NCBI RefSeq assembly: GCF_011751865.2
Contig: NZ_CP061770.1
Coordinates: 806,001 to 870,000 of the forward strand
From: Salinibacterium sp. ZJ70
Lineage (GTDB): Bacteria; Actinomycetota; Actinomycetes; Actinomycetales; Microbacteriaceae
DNA length: 64,000 nucleotides
Direction: 5' to 3'
Part shown: positions 2,027 to 60,733 of the stretch, piece after piece
Layout: the number at the start of each line of letters is the position of its first letter
Numbering within the stretch: position 1 is the first letter of the stretch
Notes under the pieces: generated by a model
What the model was told of the DNA's origin: nothing
The model's database searches: none
Seen by the model: the letters and a program-made list of their open reading frames with translations, nothing else
Position numbers and translations under genes: made by a program

Positions 2027-2155
2027 CCTTGATTCGGGGTGACTGGTCCTCAGAAAGTGCGGCGTGTCCCCGTGCGCAGGGCAGGAATAGACGTGTCTGC
2101 AGGTGCTAGCGTGTCGAGGCGCGCTGTCGCGTGCACGATCAGGGGAACATCACAC

Positions 2156-3130: not shown

Positions 3131-3223
3131 TGTGAGCAGGGGCGTCGTCGAACCGAATTCGGCGACGACAGACCCCACAGCCTGGAGGACGGCGCGGTGG
3201 TACCGTCGCGTCGGGAGGCACCC

Positions 3224-3697: not shown

Positions 3698-3763
3698 ACC
3701 GCCACCGCTACGCGGGACGCCAGGCGAACGAGACCTTCAGCTTCGACCTCGCTGAGACGGGCG

Positions 3764-5039: not shown

Positions 5040-5266
5040 CGCCGGCTCCTTTCAGTGGTCACACGCGCCGTACCTCACGACGCGGTAGCCACGGTAAACC
5101 CGTGCCATCCGATCTGCAAGCATCCCGGGCGTGTCGCGCCCAGATTCCTCACTTTCCGGCCCGAATCCGGGCCGCCCGTCCAACCGGGGCCCACCCACCC
5201 GAAGGGGAGAAGGGCGGGGACGGGGGCGGAGCGGGTGTGCAGGGGAGGAGCGGAGGATCGCCCCGG

Positions 5267-5272
5267 TAGGCT
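5267..5272 (+). promoter_or_regulatory. -10 box of a probable leaderless promoter for ychF
   Basis: TAGGCT lies 8 nt before the GTG of ychF, and there is no convincing ribosome-binding site next to that GTG. This layout is typical of actinobacterial leaderless transcripts and recurs at several genes in this window. Confidence 0.45.
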
Positions 5273-5280
5273 TGTGCCCC

Positions 5281-7464: not shown

Positions 7465-8019
7465 TCAGCCGACCGCGAGGCTCATTCGCCCGACCTCGGT
7501 GAGGAAGGTGTCGCTCAGCACGAGCTCGACGGGCGCTTCGTCGTCGGCGAGGAGGTAGGCGACGGCTCCGATGACGGTCGCGTCTGCGGGAATCGGGGTC
7601 GTCATCGCCATCGACAGCTCGCTGTCGGGGGCCATCCCGAGTGAGAGCTCGGCGGGCAGGTCCGAGACGGTCTGGTAGGCGCGGGCGTGCGTCAGCCAGG
7701 CGGTGAGCGGGTCGATCTCCTCGCCCGACGTGTTGGTCGTCTCGAACCACACGGCCAGCACGGGCGCCTCGCCGTATTCGTTGCCCGACTCTCCCTGCGG
7801 GATCACGGCGCTGTCGGTGATGCGGATGCTGAGCTTGGACGACGTGAGGGTGCCGTCTGCGAAGACGGTCGTTCCTGGCTGCTCGGCGCCGATCTCGATC
7901 TCCTCGACGGTCGGCTCGCCGTCGAGGGAGTCCTGCGGCGTGGCGCTGCACCCGGTGAGGATGGCGGCGGCGGCGACCAGCCATGCGGCGGTGGCGAGGG
8001 GGATGCTGCGGCTGAGCAT
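7465..8019 (-). CDS. Lipoprotein, DUF5067-like
   Basis: Encodes 184 residues with a lipoprotein signal peptide: charged start, hydrophobic core and lipobox LTGC with the cysteine at residue 24. GGAGA lies 5 nt before the ATG. The mature part begins with an acidic stretch and continues as a beta-rich domain with APVLAVWFETTNTSGEEIDP, a pattern seen in DUF4352/DUF5067 extracellular Ig-like domains. No enzymatic motif. It is divergent from the giant surface-protein gene, with 246 nt between their starts. The mature protein is expected on the outer face of the membrane. Confidence 0.7.
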   Translation of the reverse strand: MLSRSIPLATAAWLVAAAAILTGCSATPQDSLDGEPTVEEIEIGAEQPGTTVFADGTLTSSKLSIRITDSAVIPQGESGNEYGEAPVLAVWFETTNTSGEEIDPLTAWLTHARAYQTVSDLPAELSLGMAPDSELSMAMTTPIPADATVIGAVAYLLADDEAPVELVLSDTFLTEVGRMSLAVG

Positions 8020-8217: not shown

Positions 8218-8265
8218 AGCACGCCGGCGCGCCCATCGGTGTCGGACAGCGAAAGGGTGTGTGGG

Positions 8266-11200
8266 TTGAAAACCACGCCGTTCCTCGCGAGTCTCATGGC
8301 AGGAATCCTCGCCACGACTCTCGCCTTCACCGACGTTCTTGCGAGCAGCCAGAGTGCTGCGGCCGCGTCGGCCACGACGGAGCCGGCAGCGGAGGCGCTG
8401 TACCACACCCCGCCCATCGCGCTGAACGGCACCACCTACACCGGCGAGCCCGGAGTGCTCAGCTCCAAGTCGGCGATCATGTCGTCGGGGAGCAACACCC
8501 GCATCAACTACCGTCTCGTCCCCAGCTGGACAGGCGATGGTCGCGCCACCGGCGTGCGCGTGAGCATCCACATGCCGTCGCTCACCTATGTCGACGGTGA
8601 GTACAAGATCACCGACCGCAGCCTTCCCGCAACCCCCCTCGGTGTTCAGGGCACGCTGAAGGCGGGTGGCGACTGGATCGTCGTCTCCGACACGACGGTT
8701 CAGGGCGGACCGATCGTGCTGCAGTACGACGGCGACATTCTCGCGGGAGACAACTACGGCTTCGACATCGAGCTGAACACCTACAACGACGGCACCTCGG
8801 GGCCCTACGGCGGCGTGCCGGAAGGCACGGTCTTCGAGATCAACGGCTTCGTGTCGTACACGATGTTCAACCGGGTGCCCGGCTCCGAGTGGTCGACGGA
8901 GTTCGGCGTCGACGACGACTCGCGTGTGACCATCGTCTCGACCGATCTGCAGTGGGAACCCAGCATCGTTCCCTTCGTCGCCGACGGCAGCAGCCCGGTC
9001 GTGCCGATCTGGGACCGTTACCAGTACGCGGACTACATCTACACACTCCAGAACACATCGACGAACCCATCGTCGAAGATCAACGGCTACGCGGTCACCT
9101 TCGACTTCGACACCACCGACAACATCAACGGAATCATTCCGTTCGATGTCAACCGCTTCATCTATGGCGAAGACGGTGAGCCAGTTCCGAACGCCGATCC
9201 TGGATTCCGGGAGGGCAAGTTCATCGGTGTGCCCGGCGAGGGCGGTGTTCTGATCTACGACATCACCGACTGGGACGGCGAATCGGAGCTCACCGAGGAG
9301 CTCCCGTACACCTATTCCGGAAGCGGAATGATCGTGCTCGAGCGGCCCGCCGACAGCATCACCCCGGATGAGACGAACCGGGAGCGCCAGTACCTCGTCT
9401 CGCTGCCGATGAGCCGACAGGGCTTCCCCAGCCTGCCCACCACCTTCAAGGTCCGCGCGGTCACCGACATCACCCTCGCGGAGAACGCGCACTGGACGAA
9501 GACGTCCATCGCGGAGCGCACGGTGCAGCTGCCCACCTACAACTTCGCGTTCTCGCATACCACCAAGCAGCCCGATGTGGTCTATGGCTACGAGACGTGG
9601 AACCAGATCAGCGACATCCGCACGGCGTCGAACGTCCCGATCTTCGACGCGTCGATGACCTATGGCGTCGACCCGAACTTCGAGGTCGACCGCATCGAGT
9701 ACACCTTCGACCCCGCCGACGCGGACCGCTTCCGCGACGCCACCGTGGAGTACAGCTACACCACGGAGGCCGGCGACGCGCGGACCGGCATCCTGCGCGG
9801 TGTTCTGGACGACGAGGACAACCCGACCTCGATCACGTTCGATGCCAGCGTCCTGGCCGACCTCGACTGGGGACACTCGTTCGTCTTCACCGACCTTGCC
9901 GAGAAGCTCGTTCCCGGCGAGTCGGTGCCCCTCACGATCCGCGTGTACGGCACGCCATACAAGGTCGGAACGATGACGTCGCCGGCGGTGGCGAACTACC
10001 TCGAGCGCTTCGCGAGCAACGAGGACTACTCGCAGCCCACCACCTACACCGACGTTCCGCGGTCGCTGCAGAAGAACGTCTCGTTCACGGTCATCTACCC
10101 GGACGAGGCGATTCCGTCGACCCGTGTGCGCATCGACGGAACCTATGACCGGAAGACCGTCGCCTACGACGCCCAGTCACGCCTCGACTTCCTGTTCGGC
10201 ATCGGCGAGGGAACCGTGGCCGAGAACTCGACCACCACCATCACGCTGAACTCGGCCTCGGCGACCGGCATCACCGACGCGACGCTCACCCTCGCGGGCA
10301 AGCTCTTCGAAGATGGCGAGAATGTGCGCGTTCGCGTCGTCGCGGTCGACGGAACCGAGACGGTGCTCAACGTGGAAGGTCTCGACGGCAGCACCGACGC
10401 GCAGTTCCCCCTCGCGGATGACGCCGCGCGCATCATCATCGACACCGACACCTTCCGTTCGAACGGTGCATCCGCATACGCGTCGGTCACCGGCAAGGTC
10501 GCCAACGGCACTGTTGTGCAGCACACCGTTGGTGTGTCGATGCGCACCTACCAGCCGGTTCCGTACGACAAGAACACGACCCGCAGCTCGACGGGCATCA
10601 TCGACATCGCGCTTCCGAAGGAGCTCGCTGTCTCGTCGCAGATCGTCGGCATCTACGGTGACCGTCGCACCACCAGCACCACCTACATCCCGTACGAGGC
10701 ACCGTTCAGCGCCGACTACCAGCTGAGCACGGGCGGCGTCACCTCGCCTGAGTTCACCTACACGCTCGACCTGCTCGAGCCGAGCAAGAAGGTCGGCGAA
10801 GCGACGCCCACGCGCGTTGCGCTGACGGACGCGTTCCTCGCCGCGTTCTCGGACCTCGAGATCACCGTGAACGCGGTCGACGGCTCGGTGCACACGTTCA
10901 CCGAGGGCGAGATCGACCTGACGACGCTGCCTGCCGTCAGCTCGATCGTGATCTCCGGCACGCAGCTCTCCCTTGCGAGCCTGACCACGGTCGCGCGGGT
11001 CGACTACGACTCGACGCTCGACATGGGGGAGACCCAGCAGCTGCGTTCGCGCTTCTCGGGTACGCAGAACCTGCCGTACACGACCGTGAAGACGTCGACG
11101 CACACGAACACCGTCGAGGTGCGTGAGACCAAGACCACGGTCGTCATCGAGGGTGTCAACCAGGTCGGCACCGCCGCCACCGCGAGCCCCACGTACAGCC

Positions 11201-14200
11201 AGTGGGTGGAGCGTGAGTGGTACTGCGGTTACTGGGATTGCGGCTCGAAGATCGACTACACGCTCGACCAGGGCTACAAGTCGCTCGGAGGTTTCGTCGG
11301 CACGATCAAGCGCCCGACGACCACCTACGAGAACAACAACCAGACGACCTCCGTCGACGTCACGTTCCCGACCGAGCACTTCGACCTCTACTACATCAAG
11401 GTCAACTCCCGCGTCAGCCCGTACGTCACGAGTGTCGACATCTACCGCACCGTCGACGGCGTCGAGACGCTGTGGAAGACAGTCGAGGGCCCACTCGATG
11501 CGATGAACAGCGTGGAGGGCACCTACACCCGCATCGCGACCGCGCGCCCGTCCACGCCGGACGACCAGCTCTTCACGACCCCCGCGGACATCAACGACCC
11601 GGCTCACCCCTATTACAAGGACCCCTGGGACGCCGACGTCGACCCGAGCCAGCCGGTCAGCCGCGTGCAGGTGAACCTCGCGTTCACGCGCGAGAGCGCC
11701 AACGCGATCCCGCAGCTCTCGGGCAACTCGACGCGTGCGATCGAGTTCATGGGGCGCTTCTACGAGACGTCCACAGGAGACAAGCCGACCGGCATCCGCT
11801 CGCTGGACACGTTCGGCATCGACCGACCGATCACGCGCAGCTACACGGCTTCGCCGATCTATTCCCTGGTCGCGCACCCCTACGCGCTCACCCGCACGGG
11901 TGCTGTCACGAACACCAACAACCCCCGTCAGGTTGTGACGATGGGAACCGAGGGCCACTACCTCGCGAGCATCTGGAACGTCAACGAGGCCGACTGGTAC
12001 TACTACAACGGGCACGGCCCCGACATCTACAGCCCGGTGTGGACCGAGTTCGACGAGTGGCTCGAACACTACGACCCTGAGGCGTTCCACGACCGCCTGC
12101 TGTACGAGTTCACCTACCCGGCGAACCCGGGCGTCGACCCCACCTACAACCTCACGCCGTCGACGATCACGATCGAAGACACGTCGACGCTCACGTACCT
12201 GACGGCGCTGCGCATCGACTACACGACGTACGCGACCGCCGGAGACGGATCGGGCACGCCGTCCATCGACCCGGGTGGAACAGACAGCGTCACCCTCGCC
12301 ATCGGCGACGAGATGCGCGCCGAGATGATCGCGAACGGCGCATTCGTCGTCACCTACGACAACGCCCTCGCGCCCGGATTCCACCGCACCGGTCCCGGAA
12401 CCTACTCCGTGTCGCTCGGTGAGGGCGGCTACGCCACCACGTTCGAGGCGAAGTTCGAAGAGGTCACCGGCTTCGGCGACCGCACCGCAGAGATCGCCGG
12501 CGTCACGCCCGACTCGCTCGGCGCGAACCTCAACGAGGTGGATGTGCGCGTCGGCGGCATCGTCGCGGGCAACCGCGACCTCGTCGGAACCACGCGCCTC
12601 TACCGTCACAGCGACGCCGATGTGGACGCCGACCGCGCTCCCACGCTCATGCACACGACGAGCGCGATCCTGCAGGGCTACACCCCGAAGCTCGGTGCGA
12701 CGATCGACATGTCGTTCGACGCGACGTCGCTGTACGACTACACCGCCGACGGCATCACGCCGACGACCACGACGATGTACACCGGCCTCACGAACACGTC
12801 GCAGGCCGACATCACCGACTTCACGATGACGATCACGCCGGATTCGGCGTTCCGTTCGCGTGTGCTCTCGATCCCCGCTGAAGCGTTCGACGGGAACTGG
12901 ACGGTCGGGAAGGTCGTCATCCAGCAGGCTCAGGGCACCCGCGAGGTGCCGCTTGGCGAGTTCGCCTACGACGCGGCGACCGACGCTTACGTGCTCGACC
13001 TCGTGAGCCTCTTCCCGGAGCTCCTCACCGAGACCACCAACGACGTCGACTTCAGCCACGACGTGACGCTCATCGAGCGCAAGCTGCAGAACATCCAGAT
13101 CACGTTCTCGGCTGCCCGCGATGCCGAGGGCGCCCCGCTGACACGGATGTGGGGCTCGCTCTCCCAGGGAGAGAACCTGCCCACTCGCATCACGAGCAAG
13201 CCCTACGTCGGGCTCACCGGTGTGTGGGTCGATGAGACCGCCGCCGGCAAGGGCTGGGACTCGAAGCCCTCCTTCCGCAACGAGGAATTCAAGGCGGAGA
13301 CCAGCAGCCGCCACTACAGCTCCTTCAACGTGGCGGTGACGAACGTGGTGACTCCGCAGGTGTTCACCGAGTCCGCAGTGAGTGGAACCGGAAACGGCGG
13401 ATCGAAGCCCTCGTTCACGCGCAACAGCGGCAACAACGCGCCGGTGGTTCAGCACCGCCTCGCCCAGCTGCAGCTGCACGGTCTCCACCTGACCGAAGCC
13501 CTCACCGCGGCAACCGAGTCCGGCGGGTACTTCTACGACGCCGACACCGACCGCCAGATCATCGACGACAACATCGCTGTCGGCGACACGACCAAGGTGC
13601 TCTACGAGCTGCGCAACTCCGCGACCGAGACGAGCGGCTCGCTGCCCGTCTACGAACCGCGCGGCCACTTCACCGCGCCGACGGGTCTGAAGATCTCGGA
13701 CCTGCAGGTCATCACCGGCACGCCGGATCCCCGCATCGCCAGCGTGATCGCGGCGGCCGGTCGCACCCTCGTCGCCCCCACGGCGAACACGGTCACCGTG
13801 TCCGGCGCCAACCCCGAGAAGCTGCAGACGGTCGTGTTCGATGACCTGTGGCTTGACGCGGGCGAGTCCGTCTTCGTGCTCGTCGAGTACACGGCGGTGA
13901 ACGACTACAGCGCCGACCTCTTGGCTACGCAGAACAAGCAGGTCGCGCCGTACTCGTACGCCCGCCCCGGCTTCCTGCACCAGATGCAGGACTACGTGGT
14001 GAGCAGCGGCGGTGTGAATGGTGCGGGCGCCGACTCGAACGTCGCCGCCGACTACGACGCCGACGGCACCGCGGAGCACCTCGCCCGCGTGCACCCGACG
14101 TACGACTACGCCGACCCGAACCGCCTCCGCATCGGCAGCGAGTTCGATGTGGAGAGCCTCTCGGGCACCCCGATGACGCTCACGATCTCGCAGATCGAGA

Positions 14201-17200
14201 ACGAGATCCTGCACGACAACACCGAAGCGGTGCTGTACCTCACACTCGACACCCGCGCGCGCGGATTCGAGCTGACCGAGCTGCCGCAGCCGGCGGGGCC
14301 TGCGGGTCTCGCCGACCCGACGGTCGAGATCGAGGTCGACGGATCGTGGGTCACCTACGACCCCGACGTCCACGAGCTCGCCGACGTCAACCGCCTCCGC
14401 ATCGACTACGGCATCGTGCCGGCGCGCGACGGGCAGACGGTGCTGACGATGCCCGCCTTCACGGTCCACGGCATCGGGCACTGGCAGCCTTACGTCAGCG
14501 CGAGTGCGAAGACGTACGACATCATCTCCGAGGCGCGTCTCGTGCTGACGCACCACGAGGGTTCGACCGACGGCAACCCGGCCGTGGCGTCGTACGCGCA
14601 GGCTCCGCGCGCGACCTCCGTCATTCACAAGGCGATCCCGGTGATCGAGCTCGACCTCAAGTCGTTCGACGACGAGGCCGAGGCGCTCACGCCGAACACC
14701 CCGTCGAGCGCGCTCGGCAAGACCTCGTACCGCCCGGGTGACGCGGTGTCGATGAAGATCACGGCCCGCAACGCGAACACGGCTCCGACCGAGAACACCG
14801 GCTACGGCAAGGCTCCGCTGCTCGACCCGGTCATCTACGACCGCATCCCCGAGTACATCGGCACCGATCTCGACCGGCACATGTCGGGCACCACGTTCGA
14901 TGTCGAGGCCGCTGTTGCTGAGGGCGACCTGGTCATCCGTCACTACGACGCGGCCGGTGCACTCCGCACCGACGTCGCTCTGCCGACGGCGACCGTCGAC
15001 CACGTCGACGCCCTCGACGTGGGTGGCGCGCAGCAGTTCTCCAATGACCGTCACAACGACAGCTGGGGTCTGCTCTCGAGCGCCTCGCCGGCGAACACCG
15101 CCACCAACCCGGCGGACACGATCACCTTCCGCTCGATCACGTACACCTTCCCGGACGACCTCGGCCGGGGCGAGCGTCTCGAGATCATCTACTCGGGCAC
15201 GATCCGCGACGAGGACCTTCCGGTCGCGACGTACCCGGATGGTCGCAGCGTCTACGCACCGCTCAGCGGCTGGTACACGAACGACACCCCGCTCGCGAAG
15301 AACGCCCACAACTACGACATGGACATGGCGGCGCTTCTGCACGATGCCGGCATCACCGGCTCGCGCGGTCACGAGATGACGGCGGCCGAGTTCCTGTCGA
15401 CCTCGTCGTCGTGGGTTCCCGGTGGCACCGGCGAGCGCGCCCAGCCGGTCGAGACCTACTCGCGCTCCTATATCGACACCTATTACGACGCCTCGGCTGA
15501 CAGCGCGCGCTCGCACCAGGTGTACCTGCAGGAACGCACCGACAGTCTGCTGTTCGAATCGAAGACCGGCGCGAACCAGGACGACAACTGGCGCTTCGTG
15601 ACGAGCGCACGAGTCGACGGATCGGCCAAGGCCGACCGTGAGCGTGTGCTGTGGGCTCAGGATTCCATGCAGCTGAGCCGTGCCTGGCTCTATGCGGCCA
15701 GCGAGATGGCACCGGATCGCGAGCGCACCGAGACCTACGGCGTCTCGGGTGCCAACTTCTACGAGCACGATGGCTCGCTGAACCACATCGACATCCCGCG
15801 TCGTGGCTACAGCCCGTACGCGTACGACAACTACACCTACGCGGTGCAGCTCGACGAGCTGTTCACCGTGAGCCTGCACGCCGCGAACCTCGGCGACCAC
15901 CCGATCGAATCCGGTGTGGAGTACCTCGAGGTGCTGCCGCTCGGCATCAGTCCCTACGCGGCCGACGGCTCGCTGCTCGGCGTCACCGCCTATGACGGCG
16001 CGGGCAACGAGATCGCCCTGCCCGAGGGATCCGTGAAGGTGGTGCAGAAGCCGGGAGATCCGATCACCTGGGCGGCCCCTGCCCAGTCGCAGGAAGCCGG
16101 AACCGACGCCACGGCGACGTTCACCGACGAGGCGCCGTACGTGCTGCGCATCCAGGTGCCGGCGGCTCTGACGGGCATGTTCGACGCGCCCGCCGCAACC
16201 ACGACCTCGAAGTACCAGCGAGTCGACGTGCGCGTGCGTGTGGCGGAGGAGTCCTCCCACCTCGTGAACGGCAAGGCCTACTGGTACGACCAGCTCACGG
16301 TCACCAGCATCGACACCGAGCCGTACATGGAGCTCTACGCCTCGGTGGTCGACGGTGCCGGCTACGGTGCCTTCACCCGCGGCTTCAACAGCTACAACGA
16401 GAAGCGCCACGTCAACGACGCGGCCCCCCTCGGCATCGACCACGACTCGCTCTACTGGGACTTCTACAACGGCGACACGTGGCTCTCCTTCGAGCCGTAC
16501 GGCATGTACATTCGCGGGCTCAACGCTCAAGGAACTCGCGCCGAGCTCAACGGCAAGCCCGCCGTGATGACGGGAGACCAGATCGCAATGCGCGTTCCCA
16601 CGCTGCGCGTGTGGAACGAGATCACGAAGGATGAGGCGAGCTACACCACCGCCTACGACCGCTCCATCCAGGACTACACGGTCGACCTCTACGAGCAGTT
16701 CACGGTCAACGCCACGGTCGAGAACCAGCAGATCGAATCGCAGGATGACTACATCCGCGGGCGCTCCGGCTACAACTGGTACAGCGGCGACTACCTGAAC
16801 GACGAGGTGTGGACCCGCCAGCCGCAGGTGATCGGCGGTGCACGCGGTTCGTGGTTCGACCCGACCATCACCGTCGCGCTTCCGTACGGCATCGTCCCGG
16901 TGATCGACGGCGACATCGCTCGCTACTCCGAAGACCTCTCCGGTCAGCAGGATGTGGTCTTCACTGCGCAGATCACCGACGTCACCTACAGGTCGACCAC
17001 TCCGGCCGCCACAGCTTCCGGTGTGGCGCTGACCGGGGGAGACGTCTCGCAGCACCTCGAGGTGAGCGTCGAGCGCGTCGACAGTGAGCACGGCCTCCGG
17101 TATGTGCTGCACTTCATCGCCAAGGATGATGCCGTCTCGCAGCAGGTCATGCACGAGATCCGCTACAACCAGTCGCTCACCGTCTCGCCGCGCGTCATGG

Positions 17201-20200
17201 TCGTCGACTCCCCGTCGTTCGGCGAGGACACGAGCGAGAAGTACTACCAGCCGATCGTCGCGCTCGCGCACACCGAGCGTCCGGTCTCGTACCCGGTGGT
17301 CAGCGGCTCGCACACCACGGGCTCGGTTCCGTCTGGTCGCGACGACTACCGCGACGGATCGATCGGCAACGGCACGACGCCGTTCATGAACGACAAGAAC
17401 CGTCGCGACTCGATGAGCAGCTGGTCGAGCAACTTCGGCCAGATCCGCGTCACCGAGCGCCTCATCACACCCACGCAGAAGTTCACCCCCGCAACCGAGG
17501 TGCCGCTGCACACCAACGGACAGTGGAACGTCGCCGCCAGCGAACTGCTGCCGGACGAGGTCACGGCACCCAGCGTCAACACGGGCGCGTCGGGCTCGAC
17601 GCAGCTCGTGCTGCGTCAGCCGAACATCGTCAATCAGACGAAGGCCGGCGCGACCGCTGAGGCGACGCCGAAGGATCGTCAGCTGAACCCGGCGCAGGAG
17701 CCTCTCCACCTCGACCCTGCCGGCAAGTTCTGGCTGTCGACAGAGGTGCGCAACCGCCCCGTCTCGAAGTCGAACCCGTACGAAGAGATCCAGACCGCGG
17801 GAGACGTGCACAACTCACGGTTCCTCGTGTCGGCGTACGTGACAAGCTTCGCCCACAAGACCGGCGACGTCCGTCTGCTGATCGATGGCAAGCTGCTCGA
17901 TCGCGCTGCGTTCGAAGATCTCGGGTACACCGTGGAAGCCGTCACCGAGGACGAGCGTGAGGGCGCGGGCGAGCGCCAGCTCATCCAGTGGATGGTCACG
18001 ACCCCGGATGGCGGAGACGGCACCGAGGGCAAGCTCGCCTCGGGTGATCGCTTCGAGCTCCGCTTCGAGCTGCAGCTGGTCGACGGTTTCGAGGGCGACG
18101 CCACGACCGGCGGGACCACCTGGGAGCACCCGTCGCTGATCATCGACACCTATGTGTCGGCCGTCCCCGATGACCTCACGCTCATCACGGGCGACCAACG
18201 CGAGGACGACTTCATCGTCCAGCCGATCAACGTGTTCGGCTACGAGCAGCTCGTGGTCGAGACCGATGCGACGCCTGATTACGACGCCGACGGAGAGAAG
18301 ACCAGCCGTTTCGCTGCTGATCCGACCGAGATCGAGATCATCAAGCCGAGCGCCGAGGTCCGTGTCAACACCGCGCGCCCGCGCCTGAAGTACAACAGCG
18401 CCGACCCGGATGTGATCCTCACCGGTGACCCGTACTTCAAGTCATCTGACGACATCGAATACCTGGTCACGCACGTGAAGAACACGGGTTCTGCGCTGAA
18501 GGACCTGGTCGTCGAGCAGATCCTGCCGACCAACCGGTCGAACGACCCGTCGGTGCCCCTCAGTCAGGACGCGCTCACGACGACGCTGCTCTACGTGACG
18601 TCGGGTACGTGGGAGTTCCCGCAGGAGACGCTCGACCGTCTCACGGCGGCGGGGAAGACGATCGACGAGGTGTTCGAGGTCGAGGTGCAGGTCTCGAAGG
18701 CGATCTCGGAGGACGGCTACGAGACGGATAACTGGACCTCGCTCGGCATCAACAGCGCCACCGAGAACGTCCGGTACGACATCTCGGGAGACCGCCTCGG
18801 TTACACGAAGGTCCGCGTCATCGTGCGTTCGCTCGATGACAACTTCCTCGTGCCCACGGGGCTGCGCCTCGCGATCGACGCCGACCCGGATACCGCCGGT
18901 TCCCAGGATGTGACGCAGACGGACCCGAAGAACGACTCGATCGAGGAGTACCCCGAGGGTGTGACCGACAACGCGATCTCCGTGGGGATGCGCGCCGCGT
19001 CGGTCGGTGACCGGACCGTGTTCATCTACGACACCGCCCAGGTGTGGGCGAACTACGTCGCGGATGCCCGCGCGAAGCTGGCTCAGTCGGTCTCGCGCTC
19101 GTACCTCACCATGTCGCGCCCGGTCGTGAACGTGAAGCACGAAGCGCTGTACTACCGCTCGGACCGCACCTACCCCGAGGAGCGGCTCTACGGATGGTCG
19201 GACAACACCGCCATCAAGCCGCCCGCGTTCCTCAAGTTCCGTGGGGAGGCGATCAACGCCGACGACACGATGTGGGACACCGACCCCAAGTCGGATGAGT
19301 CTCGCACCTACGCGGAAGACACGCTCATCGATCCGGTCCTCACCTTCGAGCTGCCGAGCGTGATGGCGATGAACAAGCCGTTCACGTACGTGCCGAACGA
19401 TGAGGTCGACGAGACCCACCCGCTCGACGGACACCACCGCTCTCCGCACCCCCTGGTGGACGAGGACGCCTATCAGTGGACGTGGAAGCTGGTGCGTGCT
19501 GATCCCACGAACGAGGATTCCTACCTCACCCACGTCGACATGTACTCGGGCCCGTGGCCCGGTATGGACCGCAACGTCATCACGGTGTGGTTCGACGGCA
19601 TGATCTACCCGGGGGACAAGGTCGTGGTCGACTTCATCGGCCTCGTCGACGAGTACACTCCGGGCGTCAGCTCGTCCGATGTCACGTCGCGTGCGTATCT
19701 GACGAACAACACGGGTCTTCTCCAGCCGCTCAACTCGGTGTGGAACAAGGACAACCGTCTCGGGTACGTGACCGACCAGAACGACCTGGACCGCAACAAC
19801 ATCACGAGTGACCGTCTCGTGTTCAACGAGCGTCAGCTCTTCCAGTACGAGGTCTACGACAACTTCGGCAAGCGCAAGACCGCCTACTCCGACCTGAACC
19901 TTGCCGGAACGGTCGCTCCGGGGCTTACCCCGGTGCGCGAGGGTGGCGAGTACACCTTCACCATCTCGCTCGACAACACGAACGAGATGGAAGAGAAGCC
20001 GTACCCGTACCCGATCATGTACGACGTGCTGCCGCACGTGGGCGACACCTCGATCTTCGATGCGGGTGCATCCCGAGAGTCGAAGGCGTCGGGTCTGCTC
20101 GACCTGAGCAGCTTCGAGCTGCGCCGTGAAGGTGCCAGCCCGATGGTCTACCCGGCGAACAAGTACACGCTCTACGTGGGGCCGTTCCGCAAGGACGGCA

Positions 20201-23200
20201 CCAAGGTCGTGCGCTCGACTCTGCCGGAAGCCACAGAGGCCTCCACCACGGCGTTCTACGACAGCCTGGCTACGCCGTCCGTCGCGTCGGCGGTCCGGAG
20301 CGAGCACTTCGTGACGTTGGCCGACTTCCGCACCGCGGTGGCGTCCGACCCGACGCTGCTGGCTGACGCCCGGGCGATCCTGGTGATGCTCAACGACGCC
20401 GCCGAGATCCTGCCCGGTAAGAGCAAGCTGACACTCACATACGACATGACGTCGCCGCTGAACGCGCCGGTGTACCTCGAGGGATCGAACCAGACTGCGA
20501 CGTCGGCTGATTACGCGCAGTGGAACTCCTTCGTGGGTACGCAGCGTGCGGACAGCTTCAAGCCGCAGGAATCGAACACGGCCGGTGTGTATGTGACCGA
20601 GCAGGCGGGCACCGTCTCGATCGGGAACTACGTCTGGCACGACGTGAACTACAACGCCGCGCAGGACGAAGGAGAGACCTGGGTCGACCAGAACGGCCGC
20701 ACGCTGCTCAAGCCGTCGAAGGATCTCAACGACGACGGCACGGTCGATGACCCCGGTATCAACGGCGTCACGGTCACGCTCCTCACCGAGCGCGGCAACT
20801 ACGCGGACGCGCGTGGGCGTGCCATCACGCAGCACAACGGAGGCTGGGTCGTGATCGACGACATCCTCGGCGACATCGTCTACGACGACCTCGGGCAGAC
20901 CACCGCATCCGACGGGCCGATGACCACGACCACCCGTTCCGACATCCACGGCAACGCGGGGTACTACGTGTTCTCGAACCTCGCACCGGCCACGTACCGC
21001 GTGATGTTCGAGTTCCCGGCGGCCTACGACCGCTACGGCGTGACCACGTCGGAGATGTTCGACAAGACGGCCGTCGAGGAGTTCCCGAAGGGTTCGGCGG
21101 CTGACGTTCCCGCGCCGAACGCGACGGGTTCCCTCGTCGCGGTCTCGAAGCCGGCTGACGTCACCGTTTCGACGCCGGACGAGCTGCGGATGGCCTTCGA
21201 CCTGGGTGTCGCCGAGAAGATCCGCACGGGCGGTGTCATCTGGAACGACAAGGACCGCAACGGCACCCGCATCGCCGCCGAGGCGAAGCTGGCTGGGTAC
21301 AACGTGGCGCTCATCCACCCGGATGGTTCGCCCGTTCTCGACCACGACGGCGAGCCGCTGACGGATGTCTCCGACACGGACGGCGCCTACGAGTTCACGT
21401 TCCTGCCGCGCGAGAACGAGTACCTGATCCAGGTGACGAACGCTGAGGGTCGTTACAACGTCAAGATCCCGGTGACTCCGCTGCTGCGTTCCGCTGACCC
21501 GTTCGAGTTCTCGGACGACAACGACGGTGTGCTCGTGGAGCTGGAAGACGGCACGCTGGTTGTCCGGAGCAACCCGATGGACTTCGGGCTCGAGGGCCTC
21601 TTCGCCTCGCGCTTCGCGGACCGGATGAACGTCGATGTCGGCTTCTACGAGCGTGACAACTTCGCCGTCATCGGCGACCGCGTCTGGGACGACCTCAACC
21701 GCAACGGCATCCAGGATCTGGGTGAGCCGGGCGTGGGCGGTCAGACCGTGCACCTGTACAAGTACGTCCAGGACGAGGACGGCCTGTGGGTGCGCGACGA
21801 GACGTTCGACGAGACCGCGACCTCGGACTCGCACGGTTTCTACTCGTTCCGTCGGGTGGAGGCGTTCGACCTGGCGGTGGCGGATGAGCTGATCGAGTAC
21901 CGCTACGCCGTTGCAGTGCTCCCGGGCGAGCTCGTTGCGGGGTACACCCTCGCGCCGGCGCTCCAGGGGACGCGCACGGATCTCGACTCCGATTTCCAGC
22001 TCGACGGCACGATGCAGACCGCGAGCGACGGCACGGGACTCATCTCCCTCATCGCCGACGCGAGCGGGGATGAGCCGGTGATGCGCGACGTCGTGACGAT
22101 CGATCTCGGTCTGATCGCCCACGCCACAGCGTCGATCGCCGGTGAGATCTTCATCGACGACCAGTCCGACGGCACGAAGCTCGACGACGACCTCGCCGAC
22201 CCGCGCTTCACGGCCACCCTCGAGGTGCGTCGCGACGGCGGATCCTGGAAGGCGGTCGGCTCGATGGCGTCGACGAACGTCTACAGCTTCGAGGACCTCC
22301 CGACCTATGACGACGCGAGCGGCACCCTGCTCGAGTACCGCGTCGTGGTTTCGGAGATTCCTCTGTGGCTCGGACTCACCTCGCACAACGCGGGTGCTGA
22401 CGGCATCGACAGCGACTTCGTCGAGGACGCCCGTGGGGCGACCATCACGGCGGTGTCGGATGTGTACGTGCTCGCCGAGCACGTGGACGGTCACCTGATC
22501 CCCGTGGACACGCGCACGTCGATCTCGCACCCGACGGTGGACCTCGGTCTGCTCGAACCCGCCAGCATCATCGGCGGCATGGTGTGGGACGACGCCGACC
22601 ACGACGGCCTCCGAGCCGAGGACGAGAAGCCCATCGTGGGCCGCGAGGTGACGCTGTGGGAGCTCGTCGACGGCGAGTGGGTACAGGCGCTCGACCTCGA
22701 CGGACGCGGTGTGGTCGTCTCCGGTGAGGACGGTGTCTACAGCTTCCGCGTCGCGCCGATGCACTTCGACGACACGGCGGCGAACTTCCTGCAGCCGCGT
22801 GAGTACCGTGTGTCGGCCCAGCGCGACGGATGGCAGATGTGGTCGCCCGTCAACGTGGGCGATGACCCGCTCATCGACAGCGACATGACGGCGCCCGCCG
22901 AGGAGTTCGGCACGATCCACACCGGCATCAGCGGCCAGTTCTCGATCATCGAGATCGAGGAGGGTCTCGCGATCCCGGCGACGCAGCGTGACGACACCCA
23001 CATGGACATGGGTCTGCGGTCGCAGAAGCACACCGTGATCGTGGGCGGCAGCGCGTGGGGCGAGAAGCTCGAGGACGGTCTGCGTCAGGATGGCGAGACG
23101 CCGCTCGCGGGCCTCACGGTCACGCTGTGGGAGCTCGTCGACGACGAGTGGGTGATCGTCGAGGACGTCACGGGCACCTCCACCCGCACGACCGACGCGA

Positions 23201-23589
23201 ACGGCCGCTACGCCTTCACGGTCATGCCGGTCGACTTCGACGAGACGCACGACACCTACCTGCAGCCGCGCACCTATCGCACGACGGTCGACATGCCGTT
23301 CGGCTACCGGATGAGCGGCGGGGCGAGCGTCACCGCGACCCTGAACGGATCGCGCGTCGAGTCGATCGTCGCCGACCTGGTGCTGTTCGACGAGGACGGC
23401 AACGTCCTCCTCGACGAGCTGCTCGACCACCGCACGCTCGACTTCCCCTTCGTGCAGGACCGCCTCGCCTTCACCGGACTCGGCGGGCTCACAGCGGCGC
23501 TGGTCATCGCGTTGCTGCTCGGTGGTGGAGGGCTGTTTCTGATCATGGTTCGCCGTCGTCGCGACGGTCGAGAGGAGTTCGCGGAATGA
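8266..23589 (+). CDS. Giant LAFTG-anchored surface protein with SdrD-B-like repeats (5,107 residues)
   Basis: One uninterrupted 15.3-kb frame. I chose the TTG at 8266 because GAAAGGG lies 8 nt upstream and the product then begins MKTTPFLASLMAGILATTLA, a proper signal peptide ending near residue 35. An in-frame GTG at 8239 would add nine polar residues. The long middle (about residues 40-4100) is acidic and rich in Thr, Asp and Tyr, with recurring strand patterns resembling DUF11/fimbrial isopeptide-type Ig domains (for example VTHVKNTGSALKDLVVEQIL). Six SdrD-B/Cna-B-like modules start near residues 4116, 4319, 4466, 4620, 4766 and 4923 (GNYVWHDVN, GGVIWNDKD, GDRVWDDLN, GEIFIDD, GGMVWDDAD, GGSAWGEKL). 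The C-terminus is LAFTG (5067-5071), a hydrophobic helix and RRRRDGREEFAE. Probably a wall-anchored adhesin; ligand unknown. Confidence 0.88.
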   Translation: MKTTPFLASLMAGILATTLAFTDVLASSQSAAAASATTEPAAEALYHTPPIALNGTTYTGEPGVLSSKSAIMSSGSNTRINYRLVPSWTGDGRATGVRVSIHMPSLTYVDGEYKITDRSLPATPLGVQGTLKAGGDWIVVSDTTVQGGPIVLQYDGDILAGDNYGFDIELNTYNDGTSGPYGGVPEGTVFEINGFVSYTMFNRVPGSEWSTEFGVDDDSRVTIVSTDLQWEPSIVPFVADGSSPVVPIWDRYQYADYIYTLQNTSTNPSSKINGYAVTFDFDTTDNINGIIPFDVNRFIYGEDGEPVPNADPGFREGKFIGVPGEGGVLIYDITDWDGESELTEELPYTYSGSGMIVLERPADSITPDETNRERQYLVSLPMSRQGFPSLPTTFKVRAVTDITLAENAHWTKTSIAERTVQLPTYNFAFSHTTKQPDVVYGYETWNQISDIRTASNVPIFDASMTYGVDPNFEVDRIEYTFDPADADRFRDATVEYSYTTEAGDARTGILRGVLDDEDNPTSITFDASVLADLDWGHSFVFTDLAEKLVPGESVPLTIRVYGTPYKVGTMTSPAVANYLERFASNEDYSQPTTYTDVPRSLQKNVSFTVIYPDEAIPSTRVRIDGTYDRKTVAYDAQSRLDFLFGIGEGTVAENSTTTITLNSASATGITDATLTLAGKLFEDGENVRVRVVAVDGTETVLNVEGLDGSTDAQFPLADDAARIIIDTDTFRSNGASAYASVTGKVANGTVVQHTVGVSMRTYQPVPYDKNTTRSSTGIIDIALPKELAVSSQIVGIYGDRRTTSTTYIPYEAPFSADYQLSTGGVTSPEFTYTLDLLEPSKKVGEATPTRVALTDAFLAAFSDLEITVNAVDGSVHTFTEGEIDLTTLPAVSSIVISGTQLSLASLTTVARVDYDSTLDMGETQQLRSRFSGTQNLPYTTVKTSTHTNTVEVRETKTTVVIEGVNQVGTAATASPTYSQWVEREWYCGYWDCGSKIDYTLDQGYKSLGGFVGTIKRPTTTYENNNQTTSVDVTFPTEHFDLYYIKVNSRVSPYVTSVDIYRTVDGVETLWKTVEGPLDAMNSVEGTYTRIATARPSTPDDQLFTTPADINDPAHPYYKDPWDADVDPSQPVSRVQVNLAFTRESANAIPQLSGNSTRAIEFMGRFYETSTGDKPTGIRSLDTFGIDRPITRSYTASPIYSLVAHPYALTRTGAVTNTNNPRQVVTMGTEGHYLASIWNVNEADWYYYNGHGPDIYSPVWTEFDEWLEHYDPEAFHDRLLYEFTYPANPGVDPTYNLTPSTITIEDTSTLTYLTALRIDYTTYATAGDGSGTPSIDPGGTDSVTLAIGDEMRAEMIANGAFVVTYDNALAPGFHRTGPGTYSVSLGEGGYATTFEAKFEEVTGFGDRTAEIAGVTPDSLGANLNEVDVRVGGIVAGNRDLVGTTRLYRHSDADVDADRAPTLMHTTSAILQGYTPKLGATIDMSFDATSLYDYTADGITPTTTTMYTGLTNTSQADITDFTMTITPDSAFRSRVLSIPAEAFDGNWTVGKVVIQQAQGTREVPLGEFAYDAATDAYVLDLVSLFPELLTETTNDVDFSHDVTLIERKLQNIQITFSAARDAEGAPLTRMWGSLSQGENLPTRITSKPYVGLTGVWVDETAAGKGWDSKPSFRNEEFKAETSSRHYSSFNVAVTNVVTPQVFTESAVSGTGNGGSKPSFTRNSGNNAPVVQHRLAQLQLHGLHLTEALTAATESGGYFYDADTDRQIIDDNIAVGDTTKVLYELRNSATETSGSLPVYEPRGHFTAPTGLKISDLQVITGTPDPRIASVIAAAGRTLVAPTANTVTVSGANPEKLQTVVFDDLWLDAGESVFVLVEYTAVNDYSADLLATQNKQVAPYSYARPGFLHQMQDYVVSSGGVNGAGADSNVAADYDADGTAEHLARVHPTYDYADPNRLRIGSEFDVESLSGTPMTLTISQIENEILHDNTEAVLYLTLDTRARGFELTELPQPAGPAGLADPTVEIEVDGSWVTYDPDVHELADVNRLRIDYGIVPARDGQTVLTMPAFTVHGIGHWQPYVSASAKTYDIISEARLVLTHHEGSTDGNPAVASYAQAPRATSVIHKAIPVIELDLKSFDDEAEALTPNTPSSALGKTSYRPGDAVSMKITARNANTAPTENTGYGKAPLLDPVIYDRIPEYIGTDLDRHMSGTTFDVEAAVAEGDLVIRHYDAAGALRTDVALPTATVDHVDALDVGGAQQFSNDRHNDSWGLLSSASPANTATNPADTITFRSITYTFPDDLGRGERLEIIYSGTIRDEDLPVATYPDGRSVYAPLSGWYTNDTPLAKNAHNYDMDMAALLHDAGITGSRGHEMTAAEFLSTSSSWVPGGTGERAQPVETYSRSYIDTYYDASADSARSHQVYLQERTDSLLFESKTGANQDDNWRFVTSARVDGSAKADRERVLWAQDSMQLSRAWLYAASEMAPDRERTETYGVSGANFYEHDGSLNHIDIPRRGYSPYAYDNYTYAVQLDELFTVSLHAANLGDHPIESGVEYLEVLPLGISPYAADGSLLGVTAYDGAGNEIALPEGSVKVVQKPGDPITWAAPAQSQEAGTDATATFTDEAPYVLRIQVPAALTGMFDAPAATTTSKYQRVDVRVRVAEESSHLVNGKAYWYDQLTVTSIDTEPYMELYASVVDGAGYGAFTRGFNSYNEKRHVNDAAPLGIDHDSLYWDFYNGDTWLSFEPYGMYIRGLNAQGTRAELNGKPAVMTGDQIAMRVPTLRVWNEITKDEASYTTAYDRSIQDYTVDLYEQFTVNATVENQQIESQDDYIRGRSGYNWYSGDYLNDEVWTRQPQVIGGARGSWFDPTITVALPYGIVPVIDGDIARYSEDLSGQQDVVFTAQITDVTYRSTTPAATASGVALTGGDVSQHLEVSVERVDSEHGLRYVLHFIAKDDAVSQQVMHEIRYNQSLTVSPRVMVVDSPSFGEDTSEKYYQPIVALAHTERPVSYPVVSGSHTTGSVPSGRDDYRDGSIGNGTTPFMNDKNRRDSMSSWSSNFGQIRVTERLITPTQKFTPATEVPLHTNGQWNVAASELLPDEVTAPSVNTGASGSTQLVLRQPNIVNQTKAGATAEATPKDRQLNPAQEPLHLDPAGKFWLSTEVRNRPVSKSNPYEEIQTAGDVHNSRFLVSAYVTSFAHKTGDVRLLIDGKLLDRAAFEDLGYTVEAVTEDEREGAGERQLIQWMVTTPDGGDGTEGKLASGDRFELRFELQLVDGFEGDATTGGTTWEHPSLIIDTYVSAVPDDLTLITGDQREDDFIVQPINVFGYEQLVVETDATPDYDADGEKTSRFAADPTEIEIIKPSAEVRVNTARPRLKYNSADPDVILTGDPYFKSSDDIEYLVTHVKNTGSALKDLVVEQILPTNRSNDPSVPLSQDALTTTLLYVTSGTWEFPQETLDRLTAAGKTIDEVFEVEVQVSKAISEDGYETDNWTSLGINSATENVRYDISGDRLGYTKVRVIVRSLDDNFLVPTGLRLAIDADPDTAGSQDVTQTDPKNDSIEEYPEGVTDNAISVGMRAASVGDRTVFIYDTAQVWANYVADARAKLAQSVSRSYLTMSRPVVNVKHEALYYRSDRTYPEERLYGWSDNTAIKPPAFLKFRGEAINADDTMWDTDPKSDESRTYAEDTLIDPVLTFELPSVMAMNKPFTYVPNDEVDETHPLDGHHRSPHPLVDEDAYQWTWKLVRADPTNEDSYLTHVDMYSGPWPGMDRNVITVWFDGMIYPGDKVVVDFIGLVDEYTPGVSSSDVTSRAYLTNNTGLLQPLNSVWNKDNRLGYVTDQNDLDRNNITSDRLVFNERQLFQYEVYDNFGKRKTAYSDLNLAGTVAPGLTPVREGGEYTFTISLDNTNEMEEKPYPYPIMYDVLPHVGDTSIFDAGASRESKASGLLDLSSFELRREGASPMVYPANKYTLYVGPFRKDGTKVVRSTLPEATEASTTAFYDSLATPSVASAVRSEHFVTLADFRTAVASDPTLLADARAILVMLNDAAEILPGKSKLTLTYDMTSPLNAPVYLEGSNQTATSADYAQWNSFVGTQRADSFKPQESNTAGVYVTEQAGTVSIGNYVWHDVNYNAAQDEGETWVDQNGRTLLKPSKDLNDDGTVDDPGINGVTVTLLTERGNYADARGRAITQHNGGWVVIDDILGDIVYDDLGQTTASDGPMTTTTRSDIHGNAGYYVFSNLAPATYRVMFEFPAAYDRYGVTTSEMFDKTAVEEFPKGSAADVPAPNATGSLVAVSKPADVTVSTPDELRMAFDLGVAEKIRTGGVIWNDKDRNGTRIAAEAKLAGYNVALIHPDGSPVLDHDGEPLTDVSDTDGAYEFTFLPRENEYLIQVTNAEGRYNVKIPVTPLLRSADPFEFSDDNDGVLVELEDGTLVVRSNPMDFGLEGLFASRFADRMNVDVGFYERDNFAVIGDRVWDDLNRNGIQDLGEPGVGGQTVHLYKYVQDEDGLWVRDETFDETATSDSHGFYSFRRVEAFDLAVADELIEYRYAVAVLPGELVAGYTLAPALQGTRTDLDSDFQLDGTMQTASDGTGLISLIADASGDEPVMRDVVTIDLGLIAHATASIAGEIFIDDQSDGTKLDDDLADPRFTATLEVRRDGGSWKAVGSMASTNVYSFEDLPTYDDASGTLLEYRVVVSEIPLWLGLTSHNAGADGIDSDFVEDARGATITAVSDVYVLAEHVDGHLIPVDTRTSISHPTVDLGLLEPASIIGGMVWDDADHDGLRAEDEKPIVGREVTLWELVDGEWVQALDLDGRGVVVSGEDGVYSFRVAPMHFDDTAANFLQPREYRVSAQRDGWQMWSPVNVGDDPLIDSDMTAPAEEFGTIHTGISGQFSIIEIEEGLAIPATQRDDTHMDMGLRSQKHTVIVGGSAWGEKLEDGLRQDGETPLAGLTVTLWELVDDEWVIVEDVTGTSTRTTDANGRYAFTVMPVDFDETHDTYLQPRTYRTTVDMPFGYRMSGGASVTATLNGSRVESIVADLVLFDEDGNVLLDELLDHRTLDFPFVQDRLAFTGLGGLTAALVIALLLGGGGLFLIMVRRRRDGREEFAE

Positions 23590-24026
23590 TGTCCCACGAC
23601 ACCCCCCGGTCGGGCCGCCGTTCGGCGGCCCCCCGGACGCGTCGGCCGCGGTGGATCGCTATCGCGATCGCCGCTGCCGCCGCCGTGGTGGCCGCGCTGG
23701 TGGCGGTCCTGATCTGGTCGCCGTGGTCGGTGCGCACGGTCGAGATCGGCGGCCTCGAGTACCGCACGAACATCGAGCTCCGCGAGGGGGATTCCGGCGT
23801 CTACGCGTTCATGCCCGTCAACACCGACACGACCGAGGTCGTGCTCGAGACGGGCGACCAGCAGAAGGACAGCGTGATCCGCAGCTTCCTGGAGCGTCTC
23901 GACACGTTCGTACCGGGTGAGCATGTGCTCGAGATGGACGAGGCACCCACGATCCGCGTGATCATCGATGGCATCGAGGGCGAGAGCGGAAGCGTTCTGG
24001 AGCAGCTCGACAGCTCCCGCGAGTAG
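23586..24026 (+). CDS. Small single-pass membrane protein coupled to the giant surface protein
   Basis: Encodes 146 residues. Its ATG overlaps the TGA of the giant gene (ATGA), so translation is probably coupled. A second ATG follows directly. The N-terminal 22 residues are Arg-rich, and residues about 23-46 form an Ala/Val membrane helix ending in WSPWSV. The remaining 100 residues would lie outside the cell and are acidic (LREGDSGVYAFMPVNTDTTE, then a helix VIRSFLERLDTFVP). I recognise no family. The coupling suggests a role with the giant protein, for example in its export, folding or anchoring, but this is inference. It is not a sortase: there is no TLXTC motif. Confidence 0.7.
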   Translation: MMSHDTPRSGRRSAAPRTRRPRWIAIAIAAAAAVVAALVAVLIWSPWSVRTVEIGGLEYRTNIELREGDSGVYAFMPVNTDTTEVVLETGDQQKDSVIRSFLERLDTFVPGEHVLEMDEAPTIRVIIDGIEGESGSVLEQLDSSRE

Positions 24027-24060
24027 CCTCCCGGCTTCGGCGATCACGGAGAATGGGCCC

Positions 24061-24663
24061 ATGCCCTTCACCCTCGCTGAGCCGCACCACAGCGAGCTGC
24101 TGATCCGGAAGAGCCGGTTCATCGGATGCGTGGAGCCTGTCGCGGGGCGCGAGCAGGCGCTCGAGCGGGTCGCGGAGCTGCGCGAGCAGCACCCCGACGC
24201 GCGCCACGTGTGCTGGGCGCTCATGGCGGGCGGGCATTCCGCGGCGAACGACGACGGCGAACCGGGAGGCACCGCCGGGCGTCCCATGCTCGATGTGCTG
24301 CGGCATCAGGAGCTCGAGGGCGTTCTGGCGACCGTCGTGCGGTACTTCGGCGGGATCAAGCTCGGTGCGGGCGGTCTCGTGCGCGCCTACACGGATGCGG
24401 TCGCTCAGGCGCTCGTCGACGCCCAACGGGTGGAGCTCGTGCGCCTGCGCACCCTGCTCGTGGTGGTGCCGTACGCCGTCGAAGGTGCCGTGCGGCGCGA
24501 GTTCGACGCTCACGGGGCGACTCTCGGCGAGGTCGTGCACGGTGCGGATGTCGAGCTCGTCGTGCAGGTGCCGGACGATGTGGTCGACGCCCTCACCGCG
24601 CGTGTGAACGACATCGCGCAGGGTGCTGCGGTGATCGAGCAGATCGCCGACCCCGACGAGTGA
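24061..24663 (+). CDS. YigZ/IMPACT family protein
   Basis: Encodes 200 residues, the family's normal length. The N-terminal UPF0029 domain is unmistakable: IRKSRFIGCVEPV, HVCWALMAGGHSAANDDGEP with the signature DDGEPGGTAGRPML, and VVRYFGGIKLGAGGLVRAY. The C-terminal ferredoxin-like half (residues about 125-200) is complete. Family members are linked to nucleic acid binding or translation, but the bacterial function is unknown. The start at ATG 24061 has GGAG about 9 nt upstream and a GAGAAT box 6 nt upstream. It is 34 nt downstream of the small membrane-protein gene and could be read through from it. Confidence 0.92.
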   Translation: MPFTLAEPHHSELLIRKSRFIGCVEPVAGREQALERVAELREQHPDARHVCWALMAGGHSAANDDGEPGGTAGRPMLDVLRHQELEGVLATVVRYFGGIKLGAGGLVRAYTDAVAQALVDAQRVELVRLRTLLVVVPYAVEGAVRREFDAHGATLGEVVHGADVELVVQVPDDVVDALTARVNDIAQGAAVIEQIADPDE

Positions 24664-35388: not shown

Positions 35389-35435
35389 GCTGTCGCGGCA
35401 TCCGGTAGTGTGATCGCACAACCGAATACCGGCCG

Positions 35436-35630: not shown

Positions 35631-35660
35631 GTTCCACCGACCTGATCGGAGAACTCGTCC

Positions 35661-55432: not shown

Positions 55433-60502
<5,070 letters not shown>

Positions 60503-60607
60503 AACACATAAGTTTATGTTGCACGCGTCCACTTTGTGGTTCCCGATTGACGGTCGGAACCCGCTTCGAACAAGAATCGAAGCACATGGCTGATACAATC
60601 AATATTG

Positions 60608-60724: not shown

Positions 60725-60733
60725 CTCCTTTTA

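Follow-up and report, generated by a model that had tools for sequence, protein, structure and literature searches.

Repeat expansion is the usual explanation for giant bacterial surface proteins. The locus described here raises the question of why a chain should be so long when some 4,000 of its residues lack recognisable repeats, keep their order at 20-23% identity over two phyla and are under selection in every part tested. It lies in what is called here the window, that is, the whole stretch of 64,000 nucleotides that was analysed, and it starts from two features:

8266-23589, + strand: giant surface protein gene, 5,107 residues, stop codon within the coordinates
8251-8257, + strand: GAAAGGG, likely ribosome-binding site by sequence reading, 8 bases 5' of the TTG start

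An earlier note on this DNA had described a single 15.3-kb gene for 5,107 residues, a reading that stands: the 5,107 codons are translated without an internal stop, neither a frameshift nor an assembly error was found, and the genome is one contig of 2,844,936 bp (99.99% complete) that contains the whole window. The mechanical open frame begins upstream, at GTG 8239, and the TTG at 8266 is preferred because GAAAGGG precedes it and the frames of relatives have the same Leu-Lys start. Consensus scans for promoters and terminators gave no match. In 2-kb windows the gene has a GC content of 64-67%, versus 67-71% in its immediate surroundings. The protein had been called acidic and rich in Thr, Asp and Tyr, as its composition bears out (T 10.1%, D 8.9%, Y 4.6%, net charge -383, with 2 Cys). 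Elsewhere in the window lie a 16S-23S-5S rRNA operon (55432-60725, +) and a tandem glycine riboswitch of two aptamers (35435-35633, +) directly before the frame starting at 35661; no tRNA gene was found in the 64 kb, and several other frames without a Pfam match are probably spurious.

Long spurious frames are common in high-GC genomes, and it is in principle conceivable that misassembly fused several genes here or that high GC merely kept a frame open. The giant gene does contain an antisense frame of 2,544 aa, as high GC can give, but the genome was assembled as one contig, colinear frames of other genomes sit in stretches of 30-70% GC, and dN/dS in relatives is close to 0.1. An artefact of either kind was thus dropped as wholly implausible. 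The giant gene is real and not a product of chance, given its colinear relatives and a whole-gene dN/dS of 0.089-0.141 in four of four pairs (Nei-Gojobori, pairs of relatives, the window sequence being in none of them). As to the antisense mechanical frame itself (10177-17811, -), the longest minus-strand frames listed in relatives measure 2,507 aa (L012), 1,706 aa (L014), 733 aa (L013) and 611 aa (L011); with only 611 and 733 aa in the last two, a second gene is doubted, and the frame is probably an effect of codon usage.

The two ends of the protein are the most readable parts, and they carry the following features:

8266-8373, + strand: signal peptide, aa 1 to about 36, read by eye as is its cleavage point; hydrophobic N-termini are similar in relatives
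20617-21171, + strand: SdrD_B module 1, aa 4118-4302, by Pfam and the family HMM
21223-21585, + strand: SdrD_B module 2, aa 4320-4440, by the family HMM
21667-22077, + strand: SdrD_B module 3, aa 4468-4604, by Pfam and the family HMM
22132-22497, + strand: SdrD_B module 4, aa 4623-4744, by the family HMM
22567-22977, + strand: SdrD_B module 5, aa 4768-4904, by the family HMM
23038-23433, + strand: SdrD_B module 6, aa 4925-5056, by the family HMM
23464-23478, + strand: LAFTG sorting motif, aa 5067-5071, read from the sequence
23479-23586, + strand: hydrophobic segment, then a tail with RRRR, read from the sequence

All the elements first recognised by eye, namely the signal peptide, LAFTG, the hydrophobic helix and RRRR, were found again in the sequence, and the family HMM likewise returned the six SdrD_B-like modules that had been counted near the C-terminus. 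A Pfam search with the whole protein placed SdrD_B (PF17210) there in seven stretches at 154.7 bits, versus a cut-off of 29.7 (E 1.2e-45), with CarboxypepD_reg in the stalk 0.1 bit below its own cut-off. The NCBIfam models of SdrD and SdrC also match the stalk, both far under their cut-offs (65.7 versus 2500 for SdrD, whose best stretch lies in the stalk), and SdrD was the sole match, at aa 4441-4529, of a PDB search with aa 1-4978. The sorting signal (LAFTG, hydrophobic segment, RRRR) has Ala and not Pro at its second position, and in Actinobacteria LAXTG is the motif recognised by class E sortases. Six matches to the sortase family PF04203 exceed the cut-off in the genome, one of them partial, and none of the six is next to the giant gene or within the window. 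For PF17210, PMC12617251 lists an isopeptide triad of Lys, Glu and Asn; by a crude count, the first-strand Lys occurs in one of the six modules of the 5,107-residue protein, and the terminal Asn is not obvious by eye. Calcium loops, sought with a crude pattern, appeared in 100 of 217 modules of the family and in one of six here, and no claim is made that the modules bear them. These predicted features give good support to a giant surface protein anchored in the cell wall.

Between both ends extends the head, for which the following parts are distinguished:

8374-20616, + strand: head (aa 37-4117), colinear in relatives, with neither recognisable repeats nor a convincing match in Pfam, NCBIfam or PDB
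14623-15252, + strand: strand-rich island 1 of an AlphaFold model, aa 2120-2329, interrupted by a poorly modelled gap at about aa 2250-2279
15853-16332, + strand: strand-rich island 2 of the model, aa 2530-2689, a related motif nearby
16873-17202, + strand: strand-rich island 3 of the model, aa 2870-2979, a related motif nearby

The picture of a long repeat array is not true of the head, since no strong repeats were found at the DNA level. TRF detected three short arrays inside the gene (units of 17-21 bases, 2.0-2.6 copies), and a direct-repeat search returned at least 60 short families; among the 20 largest, the longest unit is one of 116 nt in 2 copies, which corresponds to a pair of SdrD_B modules.

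Profile searches used four pieces of the head (aa 46-1180, 1180-2040, 2040-3110 and 3110-4116, alignments A5, A8, A6 and A7, respectively), each alignment joining the window protein to nine relatives (A5) or ten (A8, A6, A7), with a Pfam scan of every member. The domain types of the first 4,000 residues had seemed unclear by eye and were so to Pfam too, which matched none of the four pieces of the window protein at E 0.1 and no family in more than one member of A5-A8. In the whole-protein scans, MG2 reached E 0.018 in the head, half its cut-off, and an NCBIfam peptidoglycan hydrolase model E 0.039, with a peptidoglycan hydrolase at 0.013 in the scan of A7 (aa 3110-4116), the one head alignment taken to NCBIfam; at E 1 MG2 and the 0.039 model were the only matches in the head, and neither is an MSCRAMM-type domain, the mark of MSCRAMM adhesins being tandem N2-N3 Ig-like domains that bind a ligand and lock it. 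Pfam adhesion domains were equally absent from the window protein's head at E 1, a setting at which the HMMER filters drop most matches above 0.1. The best matches of PDB profile searches with the head had E values of 0.21-0.69, with nothing below 0.21. All these were read as chance, MG2 and the hydrolase (0.013) being unsupported in other members. The same reading was given to the Pfam families found in one of 11 members (CD1107-like at 2.5e-4, the best Pfam value, AfaD at 0.012, CarD at 0.02, DUF4232, Pilin and Arteri_env) or in one of the 10 of A5 (YCII, DUF5650, PHB_acc_N, and DUF7619 at 6.4e-4). DUF7619 may nevertheless be real; PMC12617251 places it in the same CnaA-like group as DUF11. 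DUF11 itself (PF01345) was matched neither in the window protein at E 1 nor in the members of A5-A8 at E 0.1.

A different view of the head came from comparing it with itself. Thirty overlapping 260-aa segments of the head profile gave 406 non-overlapping pairs, 29 of which score at least 25 and 17 at least 30, versus none of 406 at 25 or more with reversed profiles as control; the highest probability was 74%, and single matches are counted repeatedly owing to the overlap of segments. By eye, the shared pieces comprise a GD/GE-strand-Asn block, a PVIxDxIP or VLPxGI block and an LxxGExxxIxY block, a set (GD-strand-N, DxIP/VLP, LxxGE) that we take to be the pattern of DUF11. This suggests a head made of related but diverged domains that follow one another in a chain and bear DUF11-like motifs, the resemblance to DUF11 being one of motif and not of profile. 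AlphaFold2, run on A6 (aa 2040-3110, 11 sequences), gave a poor model with a mean pLDDT of 45.8 and a pTM of 0.34, in which 249 of 1,071 residues reach a pLDDT of at least 70. The better-modelled, strand-rich parts roughly coincide with the motif blocks, and island 1 has the GD-strand-N, PVIxDxIP and LxxGE motifs inside it; at this quality the islands give a hint and do not establish a fold. Chou-Fasman averages were uninformative. The motifs favour the view that the first 4,000 residues consist of beta-domains, which the one model is too weak to confirm.

Relatives of the protein were found at several taxonomic depths. A family-level search with aa 29-445 matched three of 299 genomes, the window's own and those termed G047 and G208, whose open frames (5,426 and 5,539 aa) align end to end with the window protein at 50-51% identity and with one large gap, in the stalk. 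Scanning genome contigs with profile A1 gave 11 loci, four in Leucobacter (the one of Leucobacter salsicius being the same frame as G208), one in a metagenome-assembled genome (MAG) of Erysipelothrix and six in other Bacillota, from genera typical of the gut; identity in the matched piece was 48% for the Erysipelothrix MAG and 24-26% for the six. All 12 matches in those 11 genomes fall in frames without an internal stop. Over the head, identity to the window protein is about 50-55% in Leucobacter and one other genus of Microbacteriaceae, 38-41% in two members of the Erysipelothrix order and 20-23% in other Bacillota. Complete members range from 4,886 to 11,651 aa, those of other Bacillota from 6,826 aa up to the longest frame (G689, Eubacterium sp. 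HAN012). The rarity of such lengths in Actinobacteria, mentioned in the earlier note, is therefore not the whole picture, since the family reaches into Bacillota.

The occurrence tallies, obtained with differing queries on differing samples and not comparable as rates, were one of nine genomes in the window's own genus, one of 396 in its order and one of 345 in its class (each time solely the window's genome), 10 of 54 in the Leucobacter genus, six of 244 in the order of the Erysipelothrix MAG (two already known), two of 391 in the class of G686 (G686 itself and a weak match, E 7.4e-4) and two of 226 in its order (G686 and one over the last ~320 positions only). The Leucobacter count includes a decayed copy in G1344 (L063, L064), split over frames of 1,670 and 1,048 aa, and G1137, from the Erysipelothrix order (L051-L054), has two full copies, whose frames measure 6,947 and 6,939 aa and are separated by about 370 kb. 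The match of the head profile to a 7,007-aa open frame (L107, of G1862) is confined to the profile's last ~320 positions, and judging from this match the domain preceding the stalk may occur in other giants. A plasmid home was also sought, and aa 3110-4116 had no match in 72,556 plasmid records. A link between the giant gene and the nematode-sticking Leucobacter of PMC3898767 was considered too, and nothing in the present data connects them.

The common plan of these proteins consists of a head of 3,880-6,100 residues without recognisable repeats, 5-26 SdrD_B modules and an anchor. Modules were counted with an HMM grown from module 3 of the window protein, which detected a total of 217 in the 22 sequences reaching the stalk; in sequences with a whole head none begins before aa 3,879. 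There are six modules in the window protein, G1356 and G1357, seven in G1140, eight in G047, in G1111 and in the remaining seven intact sequences from Leucobacter, 10 in one copy of G1137 and 11 in the other, 11 also in G691, 16 in G686, G688 and the cut-off G687, and 26 in G689, with five in the second piece of G1143 and nine in a piece of the Erysipelothrix MAG cut at both ends; modules are absent from the fragments L015, G690 and the first piece of G1143, all three of which stop before the stalk. The anchor ([VIAL]xTG, a hydrophobic segment and a basic tail) is present in 18 of the 20 C-termini seen, those of G691 and G1143 having KTS and RTS with the G of the motif missing. LAXTG occurs in nine of 11 intact Microbacteriaceae sequences, the window protein included, and G1356 and G1357 have LVNTG.

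Two subfamilies can be distinguished. Subfamily A (Microbacteriaceae, G1140 and the Erysipelothrix MAG) has whole heads of about 3.9-4.1 thousand residues with 38-55% identity to the window protein, and its variation is mainly in the spacer. Subfamily B (other Bacillota) has heads of about 4.9-6.1 thousand residues at 20-23%, which exceed those of A by 800-2,000 residues; much of this added length is in the first quarter of the head (1,560-1,896 residues in six members versus 1,135). The head is therefore colinear but not of one length. In a forced global alignment the heads of 17 relatives align to that of the window protein over 3,912-4,196 residues. Local BLASTP matches in the Bacillota relatives follow the same order as in the window protein, with stretches such as about aa 620-940 unmatched except in the Erysipelothrix MAG, and no shuffling of modules in the head was seen between family members. 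As to whether length and repeat number vary, a question raised by the earlier note, it is the module number of the stalk that varies (5-26), and the order of the head is constant.

The four pairs of relatives also allowed to follow selection along the gene. In steps of 800 codons over the first 4,000 codons, dN/dS was 0.051-0.171; for the three longer pairs, the final step within the stalk gave 0.186-0.202. Purifying selection acts along the whole length of the giant gene in these relatives, and one stretch stands out:

17866-20265, + strand: fewest amino-acid changes, about aa 3201-4000 (approximate, codon numbers being taken from relatives), with the dN minimum in four of four pairs and the dN/dS minimum in two of four

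In this step (3200-4000) dN/dS was 0.051-0.068 in all four pairs.

The history of the gene was approached through its site and its tree. In the window the order is exonuclease, ychF, GNAT, yjdM, DUF5067 (divergent), giant gene, UPF0029 and hydrolase, with three markers of use here:

5131-6357, + strand: ychF, upstream marker of the conserved site
7465-8019, - strand: DUF5067 protein, divergent neighbour, also adjoining the giant gene in G1356 and G1357
23968-24663, + strand: UPF0029 gene, downstream marker, adjoining ychF in the empty site of G680

Synteny was compared in nine relatives, L012 being excluded, with twelve queries from the window (ten flanking genes and two pieces of the giant gene), and the exonuclease, ychF, yjdM and DUF5067 gave clear, placed matches. 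Exonuclease and ychF are upstream of the giant gene in six of the nine (G1356, G1357, L013, L014, G1341, G1342), joined in G1356 and G1357 by yjdM and DUF5067 (44% identity for the latter); in G1341, G1342 and G1329, yjdM is downstream, and in G208, G047 and G1329 the stretches compared do not contain ychF. The DUF5067 protein is a possible partner of the giant protein. In the window's own genus, ychF is present in all eight other genomes, and tblastn at E 1e-3 found no trace of the giant gene in the 12-20 kb beside it. The matches of ychF and UPF0029 are about 36 bp apart in G680, an empty site, and about 1.2 kb apart in G678; UPF0029 was not found beside ychF in the remaining six.

An IQ-TREE phylogeny of 23 sequences separates the 11 intact ones of Microbacteriaceae from all others with a support of 98; L015 (Erysipelothrix MAG) is next to them, followed by G1140, and subfamily B with G1143 is far off. 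With a support of 100 the window sequence groups with G1356 and G1357, which belong to the Leucobacter genus, and the sequence of G047, a member of another genus, falls inside Leucobacter. The gene tree departs from the genera and simple vertical descent is therefore doubtful; the last two placements make exchange within Microbacteriaceae likely too. The giant gene probably entered this family from a Bacillota donor, a direction of transfer inferred on a tree that is midpoint-rooted or unrooted. The shared ychF site and the absence from most relatives fit either inheritance or exchange.

Altogether, the explanation to which we lean with moderate confidence is that of a fibrillar surface protein, exported through Sec and anchored by a sortase, whose likeliest role is that of an adhesin displaying a ligand-binding head. 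The signal peptide would export the chain, a sortase would cut at LAFTG and join the protein to peptidoglycan, and the SdrD_B modules would serve as a spacer holding the head of about 4,080 residues beyond the envelope; export, anchoring and display are proposed from what signal peptides, sortases and SdrD_B modules are established to do. The head, a putative chain of diverged Ig-like (DUF11/CnaA-like) domains, would bind a partner surface, be it host, mate or matrix, the stalk varying in module number while the head keeps its order. The gene, coming from a Bacillota donor, would then have been inherited or exchanged within Microbacteriaceae, in many cases at the ychF site; most relatives lack it. 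Of the long-reach adhesin or biofilm protein first proposed, the wall-anchored giant is upheld by SdrD_B and the sorting signal, and the adhesin role is only the likeliest reading.

The strong purifying selection on the head is unlike what is expected of a ligand-tuned, immune-exposed adhesin and counts against that role. So do the silent Pfam search for adhesion domains in the head and, as regards anchoring, the lack of an adjacent sortase gene and the two deviant C-termini (G691, G1143). Low dN/dS (0.05-0.17 in 800-codon steps, four pairs) would suit a part fitting its own copies, as in a structural envelope fibre or coat whose head self-assembles into a surface layer or a cell-cell scaffold with no foreign ligand; a head order fixed over two phyla and a variation within subfamily A mainly in the spacer point the same way. 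A standard envelope part would, however, hardly be so patchy (one of nine genomes in its own genus, 10 of 54 in the Leucobacter genus), and we regard this explanation, the main rival, as unlikely, if well worth keeping in mind. More improbable still is a role in binding or handling glycans or nutrients, or in contact-dependent competition, through an unrecognised active head domain: about 4,080 residues without an assigned fold could hide an enzyme or a binding domain, but the Pfam scans of the four head alignments returned no credible match to an enzyme, a toxin or a carbohydrate-binding family, and the conserved flanks (exonuclease, ychF, yjdM, DUF5067) offer no obvious partner.

Whichever role it has, the adhesin being the preferred one, a tentative proposal, to which we give slightly less than even weight, is that the head of about 4,000-6,000 residues evolves as one unit, with no shuffling of modules seen, purifying selection throughout and chiefly the SdrD_B spacer free to vary. 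If true, the head would amount to a single huge machine or ruler of defined build, different from adhesins of the beads-on-a-string type, and would have passed from Bacillota to Actinobacteria whole, in a gene of about 15 kb. For dissection of the head some 20 homologues are available, and their stalks of 5 to 26 modules, set on a common head plan, provide a natural series of spacer lengths. Apparently, this giant surface protein family, common to Leucobacter-like Actinobacteria and Firmicutes, is undescribed: no published description of the head family was found among the open-licence papers listed, preprints excluded. A giant wall-anchored protein on an SdrD_B stalk is already known as a kind; what is new is a head family without a Pfam or NCBIfam profile as far as scanned, and its unusual evolutionary pattern.

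The closest known systems are the staphylococcal Sdr proteins (SdrD; PF17210), in which SdrD_B modules likewise precede the C-terminus and a sorting signal is present too. Unlike them, the window protein has a head of about 4,080 residues, and a serine-aspartate repeat between modules and anchor was not noticed in it by eye. Mobiluncus mulieris, an Actinobacterium too, supplies a second comparison. Its giant adhesin, as described in PMC10619420, has 7,651 aa and 51 Ig-like domains, recognisable repeats with ester and isopeptide cross-links, 21 more of the isopeptide domains than the protein of M. curtisii. Set beside it by description only, the window protein is alike in its size, LPxTG-type anchor and Ig-like chain (the latter inferred here), and it differs in a head without recognisable repeats whose order is constant between phyla. 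Huge bacterial surface proteins, some with DUF11, are surveyed in PMC11573180, and PMC12617251 presents DUF11 domains as the stalk of fibrillar adhesins. Compared with such DUF11/CLIPPER adhesins, the units of the window protein are larger and very divergent, and the PF01345 profile gives no match at E 1; several of the units display the GD-strand-N, DxIP/VLP and LxxGE pattern.
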